DNA from: an uncultured Lachnospiraceae bacterium | GTDB lineage: Bacteria > Bacillota > Clostridia > Lachnospirales > Lachnospiraceae | DNA: 64,000 nucleotides | NCBI GenBank assembly: GCA_947626505.1 | Contig: CANQSN010000003.1 | Span: 1 to 64,000, forward strand | Direction: 5' to 3' | In this document: positions 3,079-14,285 of the stretch, one piece after another | Numbering within the stretch: the first letter of the stretch is position 1 | Layout: every line of letters begins with the position of its first letter | The notes under the pieces: generated by a model | Seen by the model: the letters and a program-made list of their open reading frames with translations, nothing else | Databases searched by the model: none | What the model was told of the DNA's origin: nothing | Program-made: the position numbers and the translations under genes

Positions 3079-3090
3079 ACATTTATAATA

Positions 3091-3120
3091 AAAAGGGTTG
3101 CCGCAATGCAACCCTTTTTA
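3091..3120 (+). terminator. Rho-independent terminator after htrA-like gene
   Basis: aaaagggttgc-cgcaat-gcaacccttttta just downstream of the stop. Confidence 0.85.
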
Positions 3121-3165
3121 TTTTTATTATGTATTTATAGTAAAAAATGCTTTCAATAAAAATTA

Positions 3166-4743
3166 TTAAAATGGCGCCAATGGCATCTCCTTTTTATTAT
3201 AAACATTTGCCCTCATAAAATTATGATGGGCATATCTTGCAACTATAGGATTAGGAACCATAGGACTGCTCAAAATTATAAAATCCTTTTCCACCGCCGC
3301 AACAGCAGGTGAAAATCTTCCGTCTGCTCCGGCAATCTCAAAGCCCTCAGGGTAAATACCAAGCTTCGCTGCATCTTTTACTGAAACCAATACCGGCTCC
3401 CGCCCAATTGGTTCTGTGTTTAACATAATTTCCCGATAAGTATGGTTAAAATATAATGTCAGCATACCTGCCTCTGTAAAGCTTCCGGCATAGGACATAA
3501 ACGTCCCTTCCTCCTGTCTGTCATAACACATGACAAGCGCCGCCCTTCCAAGCCTTGTTCCGGGAGTCCTTTTATCTGTAGGATGCACATTATCAAATTC
3601 TCCCAAATCACACAGAGGAACATATGAAACCATAGCCATATTCTCCGCCACATTTCTTTGCGCCTGACGAATCATGCCCCATGAACCATCATCCTCTGCT
3701 CCTTTTTCAATATACATTGGAAGCTGCAACAGCAAAAACGGAAGCTCTTCATCCCACAACTGTCTCCACCATGTAATCATCTTTTTTAACATAGTTTCAT
3801 AATACTCAGCTTTAGCAGCATCTTCTTCCCCCTGATAATACCACACCCCTCGCATGGTATAGGGCGATACTCTCTTTAGCATATACTCTGCCATTCCGCC
3901 CGGTCTGTAAGGAGAAAGCCAGCCCTGCGGCTCCGGCCATGGATATGGTCCCGCCAATTCATTTATCTGTTCACCTGATAAGATTTTTCCTTTACTGCTT
4001 GCGTCCTGCTTTAACTTATCTACCTTTATTTGATATTCTTCTAATATCTTATTGTATTCTTCCATCTCCTTAAGATATGTTTCATTTGTTTTATCCCCTA
4101 CCAAATCTTCATATTCATTATAGTACCTCTGTCCCTCCGGAAACGACATAAGCTGCTCCTTACTAAGCCATGCCATAATAGATGTTCCTCCCTTGCTGCA
4201 ATTAATAATTCCTATAGGCACTTTAAGCTCGCTATTTAACTTCTTGGCGGCAAAATATGCAATTGCCGACAAATGAACAGCCTTCTCGCAAAGCATATTA
4301 TCCCAATGCGCCTGAGCCTCCTTTTTAAGCCACTCCTCGCTTTCATAAGTCATTTTTTCTGTGTAATAAAAGCAAATATCCTTAGCGATATTTGTATTTT
4401 CCTTTATCCACTTAAATTCCTCTTCTGCCTGCATACAGTTTCCAAGCTCTAATTCCATGTTGGACTGTCCTCCTGCCAGCCAGATTTCTCCATAACGGAC
4501 ATGGTAAAATACAAGCTGCTCGCCGCCTGATTTAACCTTAAGAGTAACCTCATTTCCCTCCTCCTGCGCTGGAAGAACTCCTAAAAAATATCCTTCCTCA
4601 GAAGCTTTGGTCTCTACCATAAGCCCTCTCTCAGGAACTTCAATAACAACATCTGCACAAGGCTCTGTATACCCATATACATTTACCTTTTTTAAACGCT
4701 GTAAAATCATATTGTCGCTAAATATCGAATGCATCTTCAGCAT
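3166..4743 (-). CDS. Sialate O-acetylesterase-like (SGNH/SASA) carbohydrate esterase, no signal peptide
   Basis: LAGGQSNMEL nucleophile block, WYQGEEDA, DNVHPTDKRTPGTRLGRAAL. Start moved from 4803 to ATG 4743, preceded by ggaggtg RBS. Confidence 0.85.
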   Translation of the reverse strand: MLKMHSIFSDNMILQRLKKVNVYGYTEPCADVVIEVPERGLMVETKASEEGYFLGVLPAQEEGNEVTLKVKSGGEQLVFYHVRYGEIWLAGGQSNMELELGNCMQAEEEFKWIKENTNIAKDICFYYTEKMTYESEEWLKKEAQAHWDNMLCEKAVHLSAIAYFAAKKLNSELKVPIGIINCSKGGTSIMAWLSKEQLMSFPEGQRYYNEYEDLVGDKTNETYLKEMEEYNKILEEYQIKVDKLKQDASSKGKILSGEQINELAGPYPWPEPQGWLSPYRPGGMAEYMLKRVSPYTMRGVWYYQGEEDAAKAEYYETMLKKMITWWRQLWDEELPFLLLQLPMYIEKGAEDDGSWGMIRQAQRNVAENMAMVSYVPLCDLGEFDNVHPTDKRTPGTRLGRAALVMCYDRQEEGTFMSYAGSFTEAGMLTLYFNHTYREIMLNTEPIGREPVLVSVKDAAKLGIYPEGFEIAGADGRFSPAVAAVEKDFIILSSPMVPNPIVARYAHHNFMRANVYNKKEMPLAPF

Positions 4744-4759
4744 TTTTTCACCTCCGGTA

Positions 4760-5362
4760 TTACTTTTTTTCGTCATATTCAATAATATAGTGGTCAAAGG
4801 CATTAACTACCCTTGTATCCTTATATACCCGTTCCCTTTTATTATTCATGCCATAATTCATGTGAATATGACCGTGGACAAAATACTTGGGCGAATACTT
4901 GTCCATTAATTCCACAAAAGCCTCAAAACCTTCATGACACAAATCTTCCCCGTCATATACGTTATATGCCGGCGCATGGGTAACTAAAATATCAAAACCC
5001 TTGCGCCATTTTAAAGCCATCCATAATCTGCGGACGCGTTTACGCATTTCCTTTTGCGTATATTGGTATTTACCATTGTTGTAACGCATAGAACCGCCCA
5101 GTCCCAAAATCCGCACCCCTTTATAGACATATATCCGGTCCTCAATGCTTATACATCCATCCGGCGGATTCTCGTCATAACAATCATCATGGTTGCCATA
5201 CACATATAAAATAGGTACTTTAGCATAAGTTGCCAAAAAAGACAGATATTCAGGTTTTAAGTCCCCACATGATATAATTAAATCAATCCCATCCAATTTA
5301 TCCTTGCTAAAATAATCCCAATAGTACTTTGATTCCACATCTGATAGTACAAGTATTTTCAT
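4760..5362 (-). CDS. Calcineurin-like metallophosphoesterase
   Basis: SCGDLKPEYLSFL, YGNHDD, VTHAPAYN, VHGHIHMNYG metal-binding motifs. Confidence 0.9.
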   Translation of the reverse strand: MKILVLSDVESKYYWDYFSKDKLDGIDLIISCGDLKPEYLSFLATYAKVPILYVYGNHDDCYDENPPDGCISIEDRIYVYKGVRILGLGGSMRYNNGKYQYTQKEMRKRVRRLWMALKWRKGFDILVTHAPAYNVYDGEDLCHEGFEAFVELMDKYSPKYFVHGHIHMNYGMNNKRERVYKDTRVVNAFDHYIIEYDEKK

Positions 5363-5382
5363 CCTTTTCCCTCAATCCTTTA

Positions 5383-7338
5383 CTACTCACTTCCCTTTAC
5401 TTTGCCGCCTTCTTCATCATCTTCCGTCTTTACGCCCGAAACCTCAACCACAGGTCTCGCCTCCTGCCTAAGTTCCTCCAGAGTAGGTATATCTCCCAAA
5501 ACATTTTCCAGAAGCCAATCCATCTTCATAATATCCTCAGGCTGTATCTCTCCTTCCTCGCCATTGTGCAGATTACCCTCTTGGTCATATAACCTGCATG
5601 AAAATGTATGAAAACTGCCATTGCTTATATTATCTCTCACAAGATTAACCAGTCTCCTGCTATCCTCCGGCACATTGTTGGAGCAGATAACATCTATAAC
5701 TCCGGCAGAAATTCCCCACCAATAATTATACGCCTTGCTTTGCTGATTCTCCTTCTCCCAAGAACCATTTAAAACGCTTTTTACTAATCTCTCATAAAAT
5801 ATACCCCAATGCCATACCGGCATTGCCATATTAACAGGCCCTTCGCTGCCTCTGTAATACAATCCAAATTCCCTCGTAGCGCTGTCCGGCGTGATAAAAT
5901 CCTGACCTGACAAATACCTTATATCCTCTTTCGCAAAATTTTCTCCATAATCATAGTCCTTTCTGGTAGGCCAATCCAGATATACCTTAGCCCTTGGATT
6001 AACAAGCTTAGCCCCAAGCGCAAATGCATTTATATTGGAAATGGTTCCAAAAATGGGATATTCTGCAAGATAACCGATTTTGTCATTTGCAGTAAGCGAA
6101 CCCGCAATCATACCTGTTAAAAACTTTGCCTCATACATACGTCCATAATAAGTGCGGATATAATTGTGCGAGGTATTAAGAGAGCAATTTAAAATCTTAA
6201 CATCCGGATACTCAATCGCCACCTTAAGCGAAACCTCCATAAGCTGTGGGGTAACGGAAAATATCATATCGACTCCCATATCGACCACTTCATGAAACAG
6301 TTTTTCCGCATCCTTTGAGCCTGACGGAATAACCGCCTTAACTGTCTCAAGCTCGCCTTTAAAGCAATCCTCTAAGTACAATCTGCCAAGCTCATGCGCA
6401 TAAATCCAATCGGACTTTTCAGGCTCCTTATCATAAATAAATGCAGCCCTGTATATCTTTCCTCTGCTCGGAAGAAAATAATGAAAAATCTTCTTATTAA
6501 TAGATTCCCTTTTCTGTTTCTCCTCATTAGGATCCATAACAAGACTAACCTGCTCACCCTGAGCCAGCAATATAAATTCATTCCAGATTTTTGCAACTGC
6601 AATGCTCATCTCGTCAGGAGTCATTTCCTTTACCTTATCATATCCGTATATGGTAAGAAATGGAACAAGCGCATCTCCGGATTTTATTGGGAGCTTACCT
6701 CCCCCTCTCTCCTTAAAAACCTTACGGAACATAAAAAATACAGCGTTAAATTCTTTGCGCCTTTCTATACTCCATGGCTCCTCGGTTTCGCCTACAAGCT
6801 CTATAATCTTTGAGAACCTTGAAAGCTTCGACACATAAAGAGAGTTAATACCTGTTTTTTCATAAAAATCCATAAACTCGTAATATCGCTGGTTTTCCTC
6901 GTCGTCCGTCCGCTTCGGAACCTTCCTGATAACATTTCCCGGTATTGACACAGCGCCAAAAAACTTCATAACGCTTACGCGCTTGTTGCCCTCAATAACA
7001 TAAAACCTATTCATATATTCATAAGCCTGTATCGGATCTCTGATTCCCTCCTCAACCTGTGCGTCGCTCAAATTTGCCCACTTAGCGCTAAACTCTGTAC
7101 CATATTCTAAAAGCGGCATAAAATTTCTGGCAAATGCCTCAGTTCTTCCCGAAGTAGCGGTTCCCACAATGCGGTTTAGCGGTATATTTACCAGCCCCAG
7201 CTTTTCGTCTTTCTCAATTTCCACATGCTTTAAAATCTCGTCAAGTACTGGAAGATACGGATACTGCCCATTACTGCTGGCAGCTCTGTATTCCTTTTTC
7301 CCCAGCTTTAAAGCATCCAAATAATCATATGCTGACAT
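5383..7338 (-). CDS. BMP/PnrA-type nucleoside-binding domain protein with N-terminal ParB-like domain, apparently cytoplasmic
   Basis: C-terminal half resembles Bmp lipoprotein family (FSVTPQLMEVSLKVAIEYPDVKILNCS...AKFLTGMIAGSLTANDKIGYLAEYP...NINAFALGAKLVNPRAKVYLDW); N-terminal YVIEGNKRVSVMKFFGAVSIPGNVIRKVP is ParB/sulfiredoxin-like; no signal peptide or lipobox. Confidence 0.7.
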   Translation of the reverse strand: MSAYDYLDALKLGKKEYRAASSNGQYPYLPVLDEILKHVEIEKDEKLGLVNIPLNRIVGTATSGRTEAFARNFMPLLEYGTEFSAKWANLSDAQVEEGIRDPIQAYEYMNRFYVIEGNKRVSVMKFFGAVSIPGNVIRKVPKRTDDEENQRYYEFMDFYEKTGINSLYVSKLSRFSKIIELVGETEEPWSIERRKEFNAVFFMFRKVFKERGGGKLPIKSGDALVPFLTIYGYDKVKEMTPDEMSIAVAKIWNEFILLAQGEQVSLVMDPNEEKQKRESINKKIFHYFLPSRGKIYRAAFIYDKEPEKSDWIYAHELGRLYLEDCFKGELETVKAVIPSGSKDAEKLFHEVVDMGVDMIFSVTPQLMEVSLKVAIEYPDVKILNCSLNTSHNYIRTYYGRMYEAKFLTGMIAGSLTANDKIGYLAEYPIFGTISNINAFALGAKLVNPRAKVYLDWPTRKDYDYGENFAKEDIRYLSGQDFITPDSATREFGLYYRGSEGPVNMAMPVWHWGIFYERLVKSVLNGSWEKENQQSKAYNYWWGISAGVIDVICSNNVPEDSRRLVNLVRDNISNGSFHTFSCRLYDQEGNLHNGEEGEIQPEDIMKMDWLLENVLGDIPTLEELRQEARPVVEVSGVKTEDDEEGGKVKGSE

Positions 7339-7405: not shown

Positions 7406-8548
7406 CTATTTCTCAATTCCAAGGAGTCTGGCAATTCTTTGGCAGCTTTTACCATCATTATAGGCAAAAGTATCATTTACAAAATCTTTTATGCCATAGC
7501 GTTCCTCATATTCTTCTTCGGTCATAGCTTTTACTTTTCTTACGGACTCTATAAGCTCCTCCTCATTCTCCACCACAGGTCCCGGAACATACTCCTTGTA
7601 ATTCCAATAAAACCCTCTGCTATTTTTCTCAAATTCATTCAAATCATAGGCAAAAAATATAATTGGTCTTTTAAGCACTGCATATTCAAATGTAATTGAA
7701 GAATAATCCGTAATCAGCAGCGCTGTCGCAAACAAAAGCGTATTAAGACTTCTAAAGCCGCTGAAATTAATTACATTATCAGGAAGCTCCTTGTCATTAT
7801 AATGCTTTGCCACAAAAGGATGCAACCTCAATCCCACCACATATTCTTCGCCAAGCTGCTTTGCCAAGCTGTTAATATTAAGTCCCAGCTTAGGCTCATC
7901 TACCTGACTGTCCCTAAAGGTAGGCGCATATAACACCAGCTTCTTTCCTTTAAGAATCGGGTATTTTTTTAACAGCTCCCTAACCCTTTGATACTGATAC
8001 TGACTGTTAAAAAATACGTCTGTTCTCGGAAGTCCGGTCACAAACACCTTATCCTCCGGCATAGAAAAACTTTTCCCATATATTCTTTTAGTTGTATTGG
8101 AGCTTACAAGCAAATGGGTATTATTCTGATTGGCCAAAAACTCCAACTCCTTCAACCTGCCATGATTAGCATCTGCGCCAATCTTTTTAATTACCCCTGT
8201 GCCATGCCAAAGCTGGACAACCGAAACTGATTTGCGAAACTTTAAAAACGCCATTGGAAGAAACATATTATCTAAAAACACATACTTACTTCTTGCAAGA
8301 CTATACGCCGCCACTACAAAAAAACGCCATATCTTTACTAATGATTTTCCAAAATGCGTATCGGAGCGTTTAAGCTCAAAAAATACAAATTCCTTATCAA
8401 GCGATATTATATAATCGCGAATAACAGCTATATTTCCTTCAGGACCTGAATCATGCGTCATAACAAGAAACGCCCTTTTATCACTTACAGGAAACAAACA
8501 AAAAATGCGATAAAGAATCGCAAATACCCTATATCCCAACTCTTTCAC
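7406..8548 (-). CDS. CDP-glycerol glycerophosphotransferase (TagB/TagF family)
   Basis: VVQLWHGTGVIKKIG, LYAPTFRDS, LLITDYSSITFEYAVLKRPIIFFAYDL, PGPVV motifs. Confidence 0.9.
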   Translation of the reverse strand: MKELGYRVFAILYRIFCLFPVSDKRAFLVMTHDSGPEGNIAVIRDYIISLDKEFVFFELKRSDTHFGKSLVKIWRFFVVAAYSLARSKYVFLDNMFLPMAFLKFRKSVSVVQLWHGTGVIKKIGADANHGRLKELEFLANQNNTHLLVSSNTTKRIYGKSFSMPEDKVFVTGLPRTDVFFNSQYQYQRVRELLKKYPILKGKKLVLYAPTFRDSQVDEPKLGLNINSLAKQLGEEYVVGLRLHPFVAKHYNDKELPDNVINFSGFRSLNTLLFATALLITDYSSITFEYAVLKRPIIFFAYDLNEFEKNSRGFYWNYKEYVPGPVVENEEELIESVRKVKAMTEEEYEERYGIKDFVNDTFAYNDGKSCQRIARLLGIEK

Positions 8549-9723
8549 CGCATTCTCCCTTCTATAATCTGCGCCACTTTACATGAAGCATTACCATCAT
8601 CAGCATGGTTATATGTCCTTGAAAAAGCATCATACTGCTTCTGCCAGTCCTCTTTATCATAGCTTAAAATTGCCTCGGTTAATTCTTCCGTAGTTCTAAC
8701 TACAGGTCCGGGGGCAGTCTTTAAAAAATCAAAATAAAATCCCCGCAAATTATCCCTGTAATTATCCAAATCATAAGCAAAAAAGAACATAGGTCTCTTT
8801 AGAAGACTGTAATCAAACATAACAGACGAATAATCTGTAATAAGTATATCTGATACAAGATACAGCTCAGAAATATCCTGCTGTTCATTAAACTCAAAAA
8901 TAAACTTATCATAAGAAGACCAATCCATATGGTCCTTGACCAGATAATGAAACTTTACAATTAAAACATACTCCTCCAACAGCTTCTTCTTCATTAAGTC
9001 ATAATTCATATCGCTTGTAAACTTGTAAAAGCTGTCATGGTAATACTGGTCGTCTCGCCATGTGGGCGCATAGAGTATAACCTTCTTATCTAACGGAAGG
9101 TTAAGCTTACGTTTAAGCTTATCTATATATTCTTTATTGTTGCCTGTGAACAAAATATCGTTTCTTGGATAACCAATCTCTAACATTTCTCCTTTAAATG
9201 CAAAACATCTTCTAAAGGTTTCTGTAGAAAATGCATTCTGGGAAATAAGATAATCCCAAGTCTTAGTATTAGCGGCAAACTCCTCATGGTATTTCTCAAT
9301 ATCACTCTTGCCGCCCATACTTAACACATTCATATCGAGCGCCAGCTTCTTAAGAGGAGTGCCATGCCATGTCTGAATATAGGTATTACCCTCTCTCTTA
9401 ATAAGCCATGCCGGCATTCTGCTGTCAGACACCCAAACCCTTGCAACCGACATATAATATAAGTATTTGAAATGTGTCCTTTTCACCTTGACAGCCTTTC
9501 CCGGAATAACAGTATCCAGATTTTCAAGCGACCAGACCATTTTGTATCTTTTGTCCAGCCCTCTTGAAACCATATATTCATATATGGAACGTACATTACC
9601 GCTGTAATTTCTTCCCACGTTGGACTCCCATACAATTACATTACCGGAAACAGGCATTACCTTTGTTAATATAAAGTACCACACCAATGCAAGCTTACGA
9701 AGACATTTTTTAATTGCTTTCAT
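8545..9723 (-). CDS. CDP-glycerol glycerophosphotransferase (TagB/TagF family)
   Basis: TWHGTPLKKLALDM, LYAPTWRDDQ, ILITDYSSVMFDYSLLKRPMFFFAYDL, PGPVV; 4-nt overlap with next gene. Confidence 0.92.
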   Translation of the reverse strand: MKAIKKCLRKLALVWYFILTKVMPVSGNVIVWESNVGRNYSGNVRSIYEYMVSRGLDKRYKMVWSLENLDTVIPGKAVKVKRTHFKYLYYMSVARVWVSDSRMPAWLIKREGNTYIQTWHGTPLKKLALDMNVLSMGGKSDIEKYHEEFAANTKTWDYLISQNAFSTETFRRCFAFKGEMLEIGYPRNDILFTGNNKEYIDKLKRKLNLPLDKKVILYAPTWRDDQYYHDSFYKFTSDMNYDLMKKKLLEEYVLIVKFHYLVKDHMDWSSYDKFIFEFNEQQDISELYLVSDILITDYSSVMFDYSLLKRPMFFFAYDLDNYRDNLRGFYFDFLKTAPGPVVRTTEELTEAILSYDKEDWQKQYDAFSRTYNHADDGNASCKVAQIIEGRMR

Positions 9724-9749
9724 ATAAGTTTATGTCCTCCGAAAATCTG

Positions 9750-10151
9750 TTATTGCTCTTTATTTTTAGCCATTAAATCACCCTTAATCTTAGTTGTGGA
9801 AATGCCCTCTGTACGCGGAAGATAAACAACCTCACAGTAATCTTTAAGAAAATCAAACTTGCCTTCCCAATCATGTCCCATTACAAACACATCGATATTA
9901 TTGTCCTGAACATCCGATATCTTCTGCTCCCAAGTATACTCAGGAATTACTTCATCTACATACTTTATCGCTTCCAAAATCTGCTTGCGGTCCTCATAAG
10001 AATAATACGCTTTTTTCCCTTTCAATTCGTTAAATTCATCAGACGACAATACAACCAGCAAATAGTCTCCAAGCTCCTTTGCCCGTCTCAAAAGATTAAT
10101 ATGCCCTACATGCAGCAGGTCATAGGTTCCATAAGTAATTACTTTTTTCAT
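9750..10151 (-). CDS. tagD: Glycerol-3-phosphate cytidylyltransferase
   Basis: GTYDLLHVGHINLLRRAKELGDYL nucleotidyltransferase HxGH, EDRKQILEAIKYVDEVIPE, RTEGISTTKIK. Confidence 0.92.
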   Translation of the reverse strand: MKKVITYGTYDLLHVGHINLLRRAKELGDYLLVVLSSDEFNELKGKKAYYSYEDRKQILEAIKYVDEVIPEYTWEQKISDVQDNNIDVFVMGHDWEGKFDFLKDYCEVVYLPRTEGISTTKIKGDLMAKNKEQ

Positions 10152-10177
10152 TTTACAAATTCCTCCTACGTCGTTTA

Positions 10178-11092
10178 TTACTTATTTTCATTGACATACT
10201 CTGCCATAATCTCTTTTCTGATTTCTTGCTCTAACTCTTTTCTGATAGTAACCCTAAGTCTTTCCTCCGTTTCCTTCTCAATCGTCTCTCTAAGCTCCTT
10301 CTCTACATTCTGACGTATTCTTTCTCTCATCTTCATCCGCTTAGTAGGCTTTCCGCCTCTTATAATACTGACATACTCGTCTGCAACAGCGTCAATATCT
10401 CCAAATCTTTTAACCTCGCCATGGTCAAGAATAATCGCCTTATTACATATCCTTCTAACCTGCTTTACGGAATGCGATACAAATAATACCGTAACTCCCT
10501 TATCAAACATTCCCTGAAGCTTAGCCTCGCTTTTCTTTCTAAATGCAGCGTCTCCTACCGCAAGCACTTCGTCCAAAATCAAAATCTCAGGCTCCACAAC
10601 CGTTGCGATAGAAAAACCGAGTCTTGCCTTCATTCCTGAAGAATAATTCTTAATAGGAACGTCTATAAACTCCCCTAATTCTGAAAATTCCACAATCTCG
10701 TCATACTTTTCATCAATAAACTCCTTTGTATATCCCAGCACAGCGCCATATAAATAAATATTCTCGGCGCCGGTATACTGCTTGTCAAAGCCCGCCCCCA
10801 GCTCTAAAAGCGGTACAATCTTCCCCCTGGTTACAATGCTGCCCTCAGTAGGCTTTAAAACTCCCGCAATGACCTTAAGCAGAGTGCTTTTGCCGGCTCC
10901 ATTTGTTCCCAGTATCCCTAAACGGTCTCCCTGCTGCAATTTAAAGGAAACATCCTTTAACGCCCAATATTCATTATATGAAATCTGCCCCTTTAAAGAC
11001 TTAATAAAATATTCCTTTAAATTGTCCACCTTTTCGGTGCTGAGATTGAATTTCATGGATACATGATCCACCTTTAATACCGGTTTAGCCAT
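10178..11092 (-). CDS. Polysaccharide/teichoic acid ABC exporter ATP-binding protein (TagH-type) with charged C-terminal extension
   Basis: GTNGAGKSTLLK Walker A, NYSSGMKARLGFSIATVVEPEILILDEVLAVGD signature and Walker B; K/R/E-rich helical tail. Confidence 0.9.
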   Translation of the reverse strand: MAKPVLKVDHVSMKFNLSTEKVDNLKEYFIKSLKGQISYNEYWALKDVSFKLQQGDRLGILGTNGAGKSTLLKVIAGVLKPTEGSIVTRGKIVPLLELGAGFDKQYTGAENIYLYGAVLGYTKEFIDEKYDEIVEFSELGEFIDVPIKNYSSGMKARLGFSIATVVEPEILILDEVLAVGDAAFRKKSEAKLQGMFDKGVTVLFVSHSVKQVRRICNKAIILDHGEVKRFGDIDAVADEYVSIIRGGKPTKRMKMRERIRQNVEKELRETIEKETEERLRVTIRKELEQEIRKEIMAEYVNENK

Positions 11093-11109
11093 AAAACTCC
11101 CTCACATTT

Positions 11110-11892
11110 CTATATATATAAGATAAATTTGTCTTGTTTCTTTATAAACAAAGCTACTCCAATTATAAAGCTTACTACTGAAAACAAAAATGCATATAGC
11201 AGCAATCCCCAGTGGATAGTATCTCCAAATATTCCATTACGGAATACAGTTATACAACAATACAATGGATTAAGATTAAAAATAAATTCCTTTGCAGCGT
11301 CTCCCTTAACTACATCCTCTACATGATAGAAAATAGCTGATGAATACATAATCAGCATTGTCGCCACACCCCAGAGATACTCTAAATCCCTGAAAAATAC
11401 GTTCAGGGTAGATAAAATCATACCAACTCCTATTGTCATAATACCTACAATAATCAATGGTAAAACGCATACCAGTACCTTGTATGTTGGAAACACTCCC
11501 AAAAACAAACTTACAAGTATAAGTATAATAAGTGATATTAAAAATATGGCATAATTATAAATAACTGTTGATAACGGATACATATATTTGGGAACATATA
11601 CCTTTTTAATCATTCCGGCATTTGCTCTTATTGACTTCATTGCAGCGGTAGTCCCACTGGAAAAAAAGCTGTATAAAAGCCTTCCGGATAAAATATAAAC
11701 CGGATAAGAACTGTTGCCGCGGTTCAAAAGATTGCCAAATATAACCGTAAGTACAATAGTAGTAAGCAACGGTTCAATTAATGTCCATAAAATACCAAGA
11801 TACGACCTTCGGTATTTTAATTTGATACCCTTTTTTACCAGCTCCATCAACAGAAACCGATATTTCATAAAATTTTGTATGAATACACGCAT
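11110..11892 (-). CDS. Polysaccharide/teichoic acid ABC exporter permease (TagG-type)
   Basis: KGIKLKYRRSYLGILWTLIEPLL ABC-2 signature, multiple TM segments, paired with the ATPase. Confidence 0.9.
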   Translation of the reverse strand: MRVFIQNFMKYRFLLMELVKKGIKLKYRRSYLGILWTLIEPLLTTIVLTVIFGNLLNRGNSSYPVYILSGRLLYSFFSSGTTAAMKSIRANAGMIKKVYVPKYMYPLSTVIYNYAIFLISLIILILVSLFLGVFPTYKVLVCVLPLIIVGIMTIGVGMILSTLNVFFRDLEYLWGVATMLIMYSSAIFYHVEDVVKGDAAKEFIFNLNPLYCCITVFRNGIFGDTIHWGLLLYAFLFSVVSFIIGVALFIKKQDKFILYI

Positions 11893-12005
11893 AGCCTGCT
11901 CCCATTCACAATAACTAAAACTCTAAATTACTTTACAAAACATAATATCACACAATATCTTCAATGTAAACTTAACAGCCAAAGTTTTACATATACGAAA
12001 TTGTA

Positions 12006-14285
12006 TCACACCTCTTTTTCTGCATCCTCATAAGCAAATACATCCGCCATTTCCACAAACATTTTACGCGCAAGCATTTCTGCGCTTCTGCCTGAGCCGG
12101 CGCAATACTTTGCAAAAAATGCGTCATACGCCTCTTTGTAATCAACCTTAGTCTTACTTTCATTTTTCATATAATCAATGATTTCCTGAGTAGTGCGGCA
12201 TACCGGCCCCGGCAGCTTCTTCTCGTTCCAATCAAAATAAAAATGCTCCTTGTGCTTCTCAAATTCCTCAAAATCATAAAAATAAAAATAAATCGGCCTT
12301 CTTAAACATGCATAATCAAACACCATTGAGGAGTAATCGGTAATCATAACATCGGATACCATCATCAACTCCTGTACATCATCATAAAAGCTGAAATCAT
12401 ATATAAAGCCTTCCAATGCCTGATCCAGTATTATTTTGCCCGTAATATAATCGTGGATTCTGATAAGTACAATATACTCGTCGCCAAGCTGTTCCTTCAT
12501 ACGATGAAGCCCAAGCTGCATCTTATAATAGCCCTCAACATCCGTTTCCTCATCCTCTCTCCACACAGGCGCATATAAAATCGTCTTTTTATCATCAGGC
12601 AGTCCCATGCTTTTCTTTAAACGCGCCTTCTCCTTAGAAGCGTCCGGCCTCATTAAATAGTCGTTTCTAGGTCTTCCAATCTGAAGAATCTGATTTACCT
12701 TTACCCCAAGTCCGGACTGATAGCACGCAGACGAGTACGTGTTACTGCTGATTACTGCATCCCACTGCTCTACCTGAGCCTTTAATCCTCGGCGCAAGGC
12801 GCCATCCACTGTATTAAAAGCCTGCTTATCCAAAAACAGTTTCTCCATCGGGGTATTAAGCCATGTGGAAATATATACCTGTTCTGTAGATTTGTACCAC
12901 CAAATAGGCTGTCTGGTATCCTTTATCCAATATTTTGCCCTTAATATGTAATAAAAATAACGTAAACTAAAAAGTTTTACAATTATTCTCTGACCTTCGA
13001 TGCGCTTTGCTAATTCCTTGTCATTGGCAACCCATACGCACCTGTATTCTCCGGGATAATTATCCTGTAAATACTTATATATGTATTTTACATCGCCATA
13101 ATACCGCTGTCCTCTTGCGCTTTCAAAAACTATATAGCGCTCCAGAATATCCATGTTGCCAAACATTTTCTCCGCCAAATAACGCAAAAAATTGCTTTTG
13201 CGCTGAAACAGATTCTCGCGCTTCTTACGCTTAATAAATGTTCCCATATATGCAATTGAACGTTTCATATCCCCATCGTGTAAAAGCTTCAAATGCTTTC
13301 TCTCCGCTCCGGAAAAACTGTTCACTACTCGCTTATCCACACGCTTCATCTGGTTTGCAAAAACCCTGTATAATGATGAAGCAAATTCCTGATCTTTGCT
13401 TTTACTTATCAAGCGGATTGCCACATTTACATAGCGGCTGCACATTGTCTCCTGAACTAACAGCATCATTTCAAGATTGCTTATACAATAGCTGTACGCC
13501 CTGTCATAACAGCGCATATAATCCTGCAAGCGCTGTTGCCAATTATAGCCTGCTTCATGAGAATACCTAAAGGTTCCCGACCTTCTGATATAACCGCCCT
13601 CCTCCACAGCCAGCGATTCCTCTGCATATATAAGCGCCTTACATATAAAAGGCGCATCCGGATATAATATAATATTTGAATCAAATATTATATCATTTTC
13701 TTTAAGAAAGCTTTTATGGAAAACACACCCAAGCACTGTAAAATCCTCTAAATCGTCTCTAAGCTCTACCATATATTGCAGGGCAGTCCTGTCATATACA
13801 GCCAACGCCTGGTCGATTGCAGGCCTCTTAGACAGCCTGTCTGTATCTGTCTCATATAAAAGCTCAACCTCCTCCTCATATTCTTCATGATAACCGCTAA
13901 GCAACGGATGCAGAGGCTTAACTCTTGTATACACCATAGGCACCGGCAGATTAGGCACAGCCTCTAATAGGGCGCGCAGCGTACCTGCCTCAAGCATGTC
14001 CTCCGGATCAACAAAAGTAATGTATTCGCCCTTCGCCTTAGACATACCAAAATTCCTTGCCGCCGCCAGACCATGTTCCTCGGTACATTCTACCTGATTT
14101 ATTGGATACTTGGCAGCATAAACCTTCGCATATTCCATTATTTGTTCATTTACTTTATCAGATGGAAAATCCCTTACAATCAGAACATCAAAATTATGTA
14201 TATCCTGATTCGCTATACTTTCCAAACATTCCTCTAAATACTTTGTTTCCTTTAACAGTGGAATAATCACCGTTAATTTACTCAT
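12006..14285 (-). CDS. Bifunctional GT2 glycosyltransferase / CDP-glycerol glycerophosphotransferase
   Basis: N-terminus MSKLTVIIPLLKETKYLEECLESI...GLAAARNFGMSKAKGEYITFVDPEDML (GT2); C-terminus STWLNTPMEKLFLD, LYAPVWREDE, MITDYSSMVFDYACLRRPIYFYFYD. Confidence 0.92.
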   Translation of the reverse strand: MSKLTVIIPLLKETKYLEECLESIANQDIHNFDVLIVRDFPSDKVNEQIMEYAKVYAAKYPINQVECTEEHGLAAARNFGMSKAKGEYITFVDPEDMLEAGTLRALLEAVPNLPVPMVYTRVKPLHPLLSGYHEEYEEEVELLYETDTDRLSKRPAIDQALAVYDRTALQYMVELRDDLEDFTVLGCVFHKSFLKENDIIFDSNIILYPDAPFICKALIYAEESLAVEEGGYIRRSGTFRYSHEAGYNWQQRLQDYMRCYDRAYSYCISNLEMMLLVQETMCSRYVNVAIRLISKSKDQEFASSLYRVFANQMKRVDKRVVNSFSGAERKHLKLLHDGDMKRSIAYMGTFIKRKKRENLFQRKSNFLRYLAEKMFGNMDILERYIVFESARGQRYYGDVKYIYKYLQDNYPGEYRCVWVANDKELAKRIEGQRIIVKLFSLRYFYYILRAKYWIKDTRQPIWWYKSTEQVYISTWLNTPMEKLFLDKQAFNTVDGALRRGLKAQVEQWDAVISSNTYSSACYQSGLGVKVNQILQIGRPRNDYLMRPDASKEKARLKKSMGLPDDKKTILYAPVWREDEETDVEGYYKMQLGLHRMKEQLGDEYIVLIRIHDYITGKIILDQALEGFIYDFSFYDDVQELMMVSDVMITDYSSMVFDYACLRRPIYFYFYDFEEFEKHKEHFYFDWNEKKLPGPVCRTTQEIIDYMKNESKTKVDYKEAYDAFFAKYCAGSGRSAEMLARKMFVEMADVFAYEDAEKEV

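Follow-up and report, generated by a model that had tools for sequence, protein, structure and literature searches.

The analysed window, a stretch of 64,000 nucleotides from an uncultured Lachnospiraceae bacterium, carries on its minus strand a gene in which a region with the ParB/sulfiredoxin (ParB/Srx) fold is joined to a BMP domain, and which is followed by a gene for a metallophosphoesterase (MPE). Reading of the same interval on the plus strand was ruled out; the intact open frame lies on the minus strand. The features considered are listed below.

5383-7338, minus strand: ParB/Srx-BMP fusion gene, an intact open reading frame for 651 residues, with 99 full-length homologous sequences.
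6463-7338, minus strand: residues 1-292 of the fusion protein, with the ParB/Srx-fold core (about 41-141), the EGNKR P-motif (residues 116-120) and then an all-helical region (147-288).
5485-6444, minus strand: BMP (type I periplasmic-binding-protein) domain, residues 299-618, recognised by PF02608, 3s99 and 6pi5.
5363-5382, minus strand: gap of 20 nt between the fusion gene and the MPE gene, read from the sequence and consistent with one transcript.
4760-5362, minus strand: gene of the partner MPE, 200 residues, assigned by PF00149, fold, adjacency and co-occurrence.
3166-4803, minus strand: open frame of a SASA-type esterase with no signal peptide, overlapping the end of the MPE gene.
3087-3122: probable terminator with a 15-pair stem and a T-rich flank, between convergent genes.
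7406-14285, minus strand: probable cell-wall polymer cluster upstream of the fusion gene, with CDP-glycerol glycerophosphotransferase-like proteins, an ABC exporter pair and a cytidylyltransferase-like gene.

The upstream cluster of glycerophosphotransferase-like and ABC exporter genes is common only to close relatives; its open frame 12006-14285 appears to encode a fusion of a glycosyltransferase with a glycerophosphotransferase-like portion. Scanning for sigma-70 promoters gave sites no more frequent than in shuffled sequences.

Between stops the frame of the fusion gene counts 656 codons, just five more than the coding frame itself, with an in-frame stop immediately upstream of the start and a AAAAAGGAG-type ribosome-binding site 5′ of the ATG codon, so that no N-terminal signal sequence was missed. 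In 99 of 99 homologues the N-terminal 45 residues are hydrophilic, their maximal 15-residue Kyte-Doolittle mean being 1.21 as against 2.4-3.3 for six clostridial BMP homologues that carry export signals, and neither a signal peptide nor a lipobox was found in any of the 99. Thus the absence of both, which the sequence-only reading of this locus had noticed in one protein, extends to the whole set, and homologues do not routinely carry signal peptides. Judged by these sequence properties, the fusion protein is predicted to be cytosolic.

The BMP domain, which the same reading had placed inside the cell, is recognised with confidence. Pfam model PF02608 covers residues 299-482 (E 2.4e-21, 76.4 bits against a cut-off of 24.1), while residues 297-618 match the Brucella Bmp 3s99 (about 4e-29) and AtzT 6pi5 (about 4e-28), which are the closest solved structures; on sequence grounds it is a real BMP domain of the AtzT/Brucella-Bmp branch, with structural residues in common with AtzT, Brucella Bmp and PnrA. 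In AtzT guanine is contacted by Tyr45 and Trp194 (stacking), Glu165, Asn218, Asn220, Ser97 and the backbone of Phe98 (PMC6834077). These contacts were transferred by alignment to 46 divergent members of the fusion family, whose mean column identity is 50%, with the numbering of the paper taken as chain index plus 5, inferred since the stated residue types fit. The position of Tyr45 is occupied by Trp (W311) in 46/46 members, so that its aromatic character is kept. Glu165 is replaced by Gly in 43 and Trp194 by Lys in 36 of the 46, and in place of Asn218 mostly Asp or Gly is found, whereas Brucella Bmp and three BMP relatives from Clostridia retain Glu165 and Trp194. Since these guanine contacts are replaced in most members, the domain probably kept its fold but changed its ligand. 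The exchange of a stacking Trp for Lys would be in keeping with a ligand that is larger or carries phosphate, while the designation “nucleoside sensor” is unproven because the ligand contacts differ from those of purine-binding relatives.

These data bear on the simplest explanation, according to which the protein is an ordinary binding component of a nucleoside importer, either mis-annotated or deprived of its signal peptide. The BMP domain itself speaks for it, as does the automatic annotation of the Collinsella homologue as “BMP family ABC transporter substrate-binding protein”. However, besides the complete lack of signal peptides and the altered ligand contacts, the ParB/Srx domain is strongly conserved, and no ABC importer is a conserved neighbour in 81 clostridial loci, just as none adjoins the gene in the window, where its absence had been pointed out before. 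An ABC ATPase cluster does occur within six genes of the fusion gene in 11 of the 81 loci, at scattered positions. The importer explanation is therefore hardly credible, and BMP-family importer annotations in gut genomes can cover cytosolic proteins tied to no importer.

No Pfam or NCBIfam model matches the N-terminal region of the window protein. The ParB_N model PF02195 is below its cut-off throughout the family, giving weak matches in 4 of 46 members (best E 0.014) and none in the window protein. The fold was nevertheless apparent from the AlphaFold2 model of residues 1-292 (pLDDT 89.8): among the 50 Foldseek matches listed for it, 49 are ParB, Noc, KorB, PadC, sulfiredoxin, SbnI or serine kinase structures, and the remaining one, 1vk1, is an unnamed hypothetical protein. 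Alignment of the N-terminal profile with canonical ParB of related genomes by hhalign (E 8e-4) placed EGNKR over AGERR, and a chain of profiles led through short forms of the domain (E 4e-16 over 196 columns) to ParB (6.5e-7). With the profile of 46 divergent homologues the only match among PDB sequences was sulfiredoxin, with EGNKR over SGCHR and an E of 1.2 that is not significant; the two have the fold in common, and the catalytic Cys of sulfiredoxin corresponds to Asn118. The ParB/sulfiredoxin resemblance, originally suggested by the segment YVIEGNKRVSVMKFFGAVSIPGNVIRKVP (residues 113-141, strongly conserved), was in this way confirmed by structure prediction, fold search and profile comparison.

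Within this segment E116-G117-N118-K119-R120 is invariant in the 46 homologues. Gly117 and Arg120 of the GxxR P-motif (Box II) are invariant in 46/46 and also in the short forms. The site of Box I (C-motif) is represented in the model by helix 82-96 and a loop before strand 103-108, with residues diverging from those of ParB. PMC12704722 states that GxxR of the P-motif contacts nucleotide phosphates in ParB proteins, that noncanonical homologues with the ParB fold bind CTP, ATP or GTP, and that nucleotide specificity is not predictable from sequence, for which reason we leave the nucleotide unnamed. From fold and P-motif together one can assume that the N-terminal domain binds a nucleotide.

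The family has the core fold, the GxxR motif and fusion to other domains in common with the ParB-CTPase proteins ParB, Noc, KorB and PadC, but differs from them by falling below the ParB_N cut-off, by its BMP domain, and by the lack of two elements: a conserved ENxxR (Box III) was not detected in the N-terminal region, and no convincing helix-turn-helix family match was obtained for the helical region in 46 members, either by eye or by profile. The known clamp mechanism of ParB is, for want of both elements, not simply transferable. The same features are relevant to a regulator built like LacI, in which a ParB-type module would sit on DNA and the BMP domain would bind the effector. Effector domains of LacI and BMP proteins have the type I periplasmic-binding fold in common; ParB, Noc and KorB are the best fold matches, and their Foldseek alignments reach about 228 columns, that is into the helical region. 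But these long alignments have an rmsd of 14-19 Å, the hhalign alignment to ParB ends at the core, and single-domain relatives of 125-157 residues have no DNA-binding part at all, which together with the missing helix-turn-helix match makes such a regulator improbable.

The product of the MPE gene, which begins at 5362, matches PF00149 (E 3.6e-11, 44.3 bits against a cut-off of 21.5). Its AlphaFold2 model (pLDDT 93) is closest in fold to the metallophosphodiesterase MPPED2 (3rl3, 1.4e-10) and then to the lariat debranching enzyme Dbr1. Residues D8, E10, D34, N57, H58, H129, H165 and H167 are invariant in 35 sequences, so the metal motifs DxH, GD, GNHD, H and GHxH are conserved except that the His of DxH is E10 (motif I being DxE); in a distant MPE (L137) inspection of the sequence showed Val at the motif-I position. 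As compared with MPPED2 the partner MPE is thus shorter and has Glu for His in motif I.

Neighbourhood analysis combined with tblastn found MPE adjoining the fusion gene in 99 of 102 full-length or near-full-length loci, at least five same-genome loci being counted twice in this number, and the genomes of the three remaining loci carry MPE elsewhere. Apparent absence of MPE in five loci (L002, L004, L010, L031 and L032) proved to be an artefact of longer antisense open frames and was resolved by tblastn, while in L095 the gene was masked and is truncated where the contig ends. The distance between the two genes in homologous loci varies from −41 to +225 nt, with −4 being commonest. In the 81 clostridial loci MPE is the sole conserved neighbour, the next commonest cluster occurring in 20. 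The SASA esterase, which had been grouped with the unit on the basis of this one locus, lies near the pair in no more than 3 of the 81; it is lineage-specific and was dismissed as a part of the module.

Co-occurrence of the two genes was estimated at two taxonomic levels, with MPE counted at E < 1e-50, a threshold set after the score gap was seen, and with one weak N-terminal match (G397, 6e-9) left out. Of the 245 genomes from the order, both genes occur in 61, the N-terminal domain only in 2, MPE only in 1 and neither in 181 (Fisher p 4e-54), so that both are present in 61 of the 64 carriers of either. For 293 genomes of the class the corresponding numbers are 30, 1, 2 and 260 (p 2e-37). Relatedness is not taken into account in these p-values, and six positive genomes belong to both samples. 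In genera g23 and g66 the presence or absence of one gene follows that of the other, and G362, seemingly an exception, was explained by a contig end. The pair is codirectional in most Lachnospiraceae loci, convergent in L018-L022 and split between different contigs in family f8, and its association therefore survives rearrangement. Thus the link with a phosphoesterase, first proposed from mere adjacency, stands in both surveys. Linkage of this kind suggests that the ParB/Srx protein and MPE are functionally coupled, although co-occurrence alone is no proof of physical contact or of opposing reactions.

The MPE (4760-5362, minus strand) also matches the PADLOC defence candidate PDC-S10 (2.7e-20), which speaks for anti-phage defence by the pair, with MPE as its effector or as a hydrolase of a nucleotide signal. 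However, PDC-S10 is merely a candidate and may be a general MPE model, no further gene recurs beside the pair in the 81 loci, and joint inheritance across whole families, mostly in single copy, does not resemble the patchiness of defence islands, all of which leaves a defence role very improbable. A search of viral contigs found no homologues. Records implying mobility were discounted: MT836456, a “phage”, is an unverified faecal scaffold with both genes, and of two records labelled “plasmid” that contain the BMP form, the one from Collinsella has ribosomal-protein and tuf genes, while the other, like MT836456, carries no annotation to check.

Outside the BMP-fused family the phylum-wide scan registered N-terminal domains in open frames of 318-365 residues beside the same MPE. 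By inspection of loci, ParB/Srx proteins with DGNHR or DGHHR adjoin MPE in L137-L142, L148 and L151-L153. The C-terminal domain is of the ferredoxin 4Fe-4S type (Pfam Fer4) in L140-L142, L151 and L152, and the same Cys pattern is seen in L153. The single-domain forms of 125-157 residues belong to genomes with MPE elsewhere (L144, L146). In Collinsella aerofaciens the BMP form and MPE overlap by 4 nt. In Tsukamurella (Actinomycetota, L156) a 288-residue form and MPE are flanked on one side by a sugar ABC transporter and on the other by an alpha-amylase gene, and in Cetobacterium (Fusobacteriota, L157) a 562-residue form with a third, uncharacterised C-terminal region and MPE follow glycogen phosphorylase; both settings hint towards carbohydrate metabolism. 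Four C-terminal states are therefore observed: BMP in Clostridia and Collinsella, 2[4Fe-4S] ferredoxin in other Bacillota, the uncharacterised region in Cetobacterium, and none in the shortest forms. Since the same MPE stands beside the same N-terminal domain with other tails, ParB/Srx and MPE make up the constant core, which is older than the BMP fusion or at least wider, and BMP is exchangeable. From the nature of the BMP and ferredoxin domains one may suppose that the exchangeable domains are sensors.

The nearest rival explanation is a metabolic pair, in which the ParB/Srx domain would be a SerK/SbnI-type kinase acting on small molecules, BMP would hold or deliver the substrate and MPE would remove the phosphate, serving salvage, repair or storage metabolism instead of signalling. 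SbnI and SerK, free serine kinases with the ParB/Srx fold, are among the fold matches; the DGNHR/DGHHR motif of the short relatives is like theirs, and these relatives score better with the SerK model of NCBIfam (1.7e-4) than with ParB models (2.9e-3 and 4.2e-3). The two distant copies in carbohydrate settings point in the same direction. But the short relative reaches only 20.8 bits against a SerK family cut-off of 380, the window protein does not match this model, the BMP-fused family has EGNKR instead, and no metabolic gene besides MPE is conserved near the pair in the 81 clostridial loci. We consider such a metabolic pair unlikely.

The reading we prefer, with a probability of roughly 0.5, is that of a cytosolic ligand-responsive ParB/Srx-BMP protein acting as an NTP switch or phosphotransferase together with an MPPED2-like phosphoesterase. 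The BMP domain at the C-terminus, descended from a lipoprotein that binds nutrients, would sense a small molecule inside the cell, and its ligand state would be passed through the helical region to the N-terminal module. The latter may bind a nucleoside triphosphate and work as a switch or phosphotransferase, whose output would be carried out with, or opposed by, the adjacent phosphoesterase; this direction of signalling, as well as the phosphoesterase substrate, we infer. Across bacteria the N-terminal module and the phosphoesterase stay constant, and the C-terminal domain is exchanged. That such two-protein modules, uniting a ParB/Srx NTP switch or kinase having BMP, 2[4Fe-4S] redox-type or other sensors with a dedicated MPPED2-like phosphoesterase, form an undescribed bacteria-wide cytosolic signalling system whose signal or modification is new is proposed tentatively, at slightly less than even odds.

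Recognition that ParB-fold proteins serve as NTP switches outside chromosome segregation is recent, and the fusion family escapes the defining Pfam model. According to PMC12704722, a survey that defines the fold by PF02195, ParB-fold fusions are already known as a kind; BMP and phosphoesterases are both absent from its main text. In openly licensed papers we found no description of the ParB/Srx-BMP and MPE pair, in agreement with the initial impression of novelty, and there is a real chance that it is a new signalling module. Occurring in many gut Lachnospiraceae and in Collinsella, the pair offers a testable case of how a ParB fold may be linked with the sensing of small molecules or redox state and with the removal of phosphate.

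Several individual loci are worth recording. MPE lacks a detected ParB/Srx-BMP partner nearby in L162 (G453), L154 (G345) and L155 (G140), and in the last of these it is adjoined by a second, different phosphoesterase-like open frame. On a plasmid of Rubrobacter tropicus (L158, 3806-4285) an arsenic-resistance cluster contains a 159-residue ParB/Srx relative, with a different metallophosphoesterase close by. Genome G009 has both genes a second time (contig C25, 1064-3683), and these copies have seemingly decayed together, with internal stops and fragments lying side by side.
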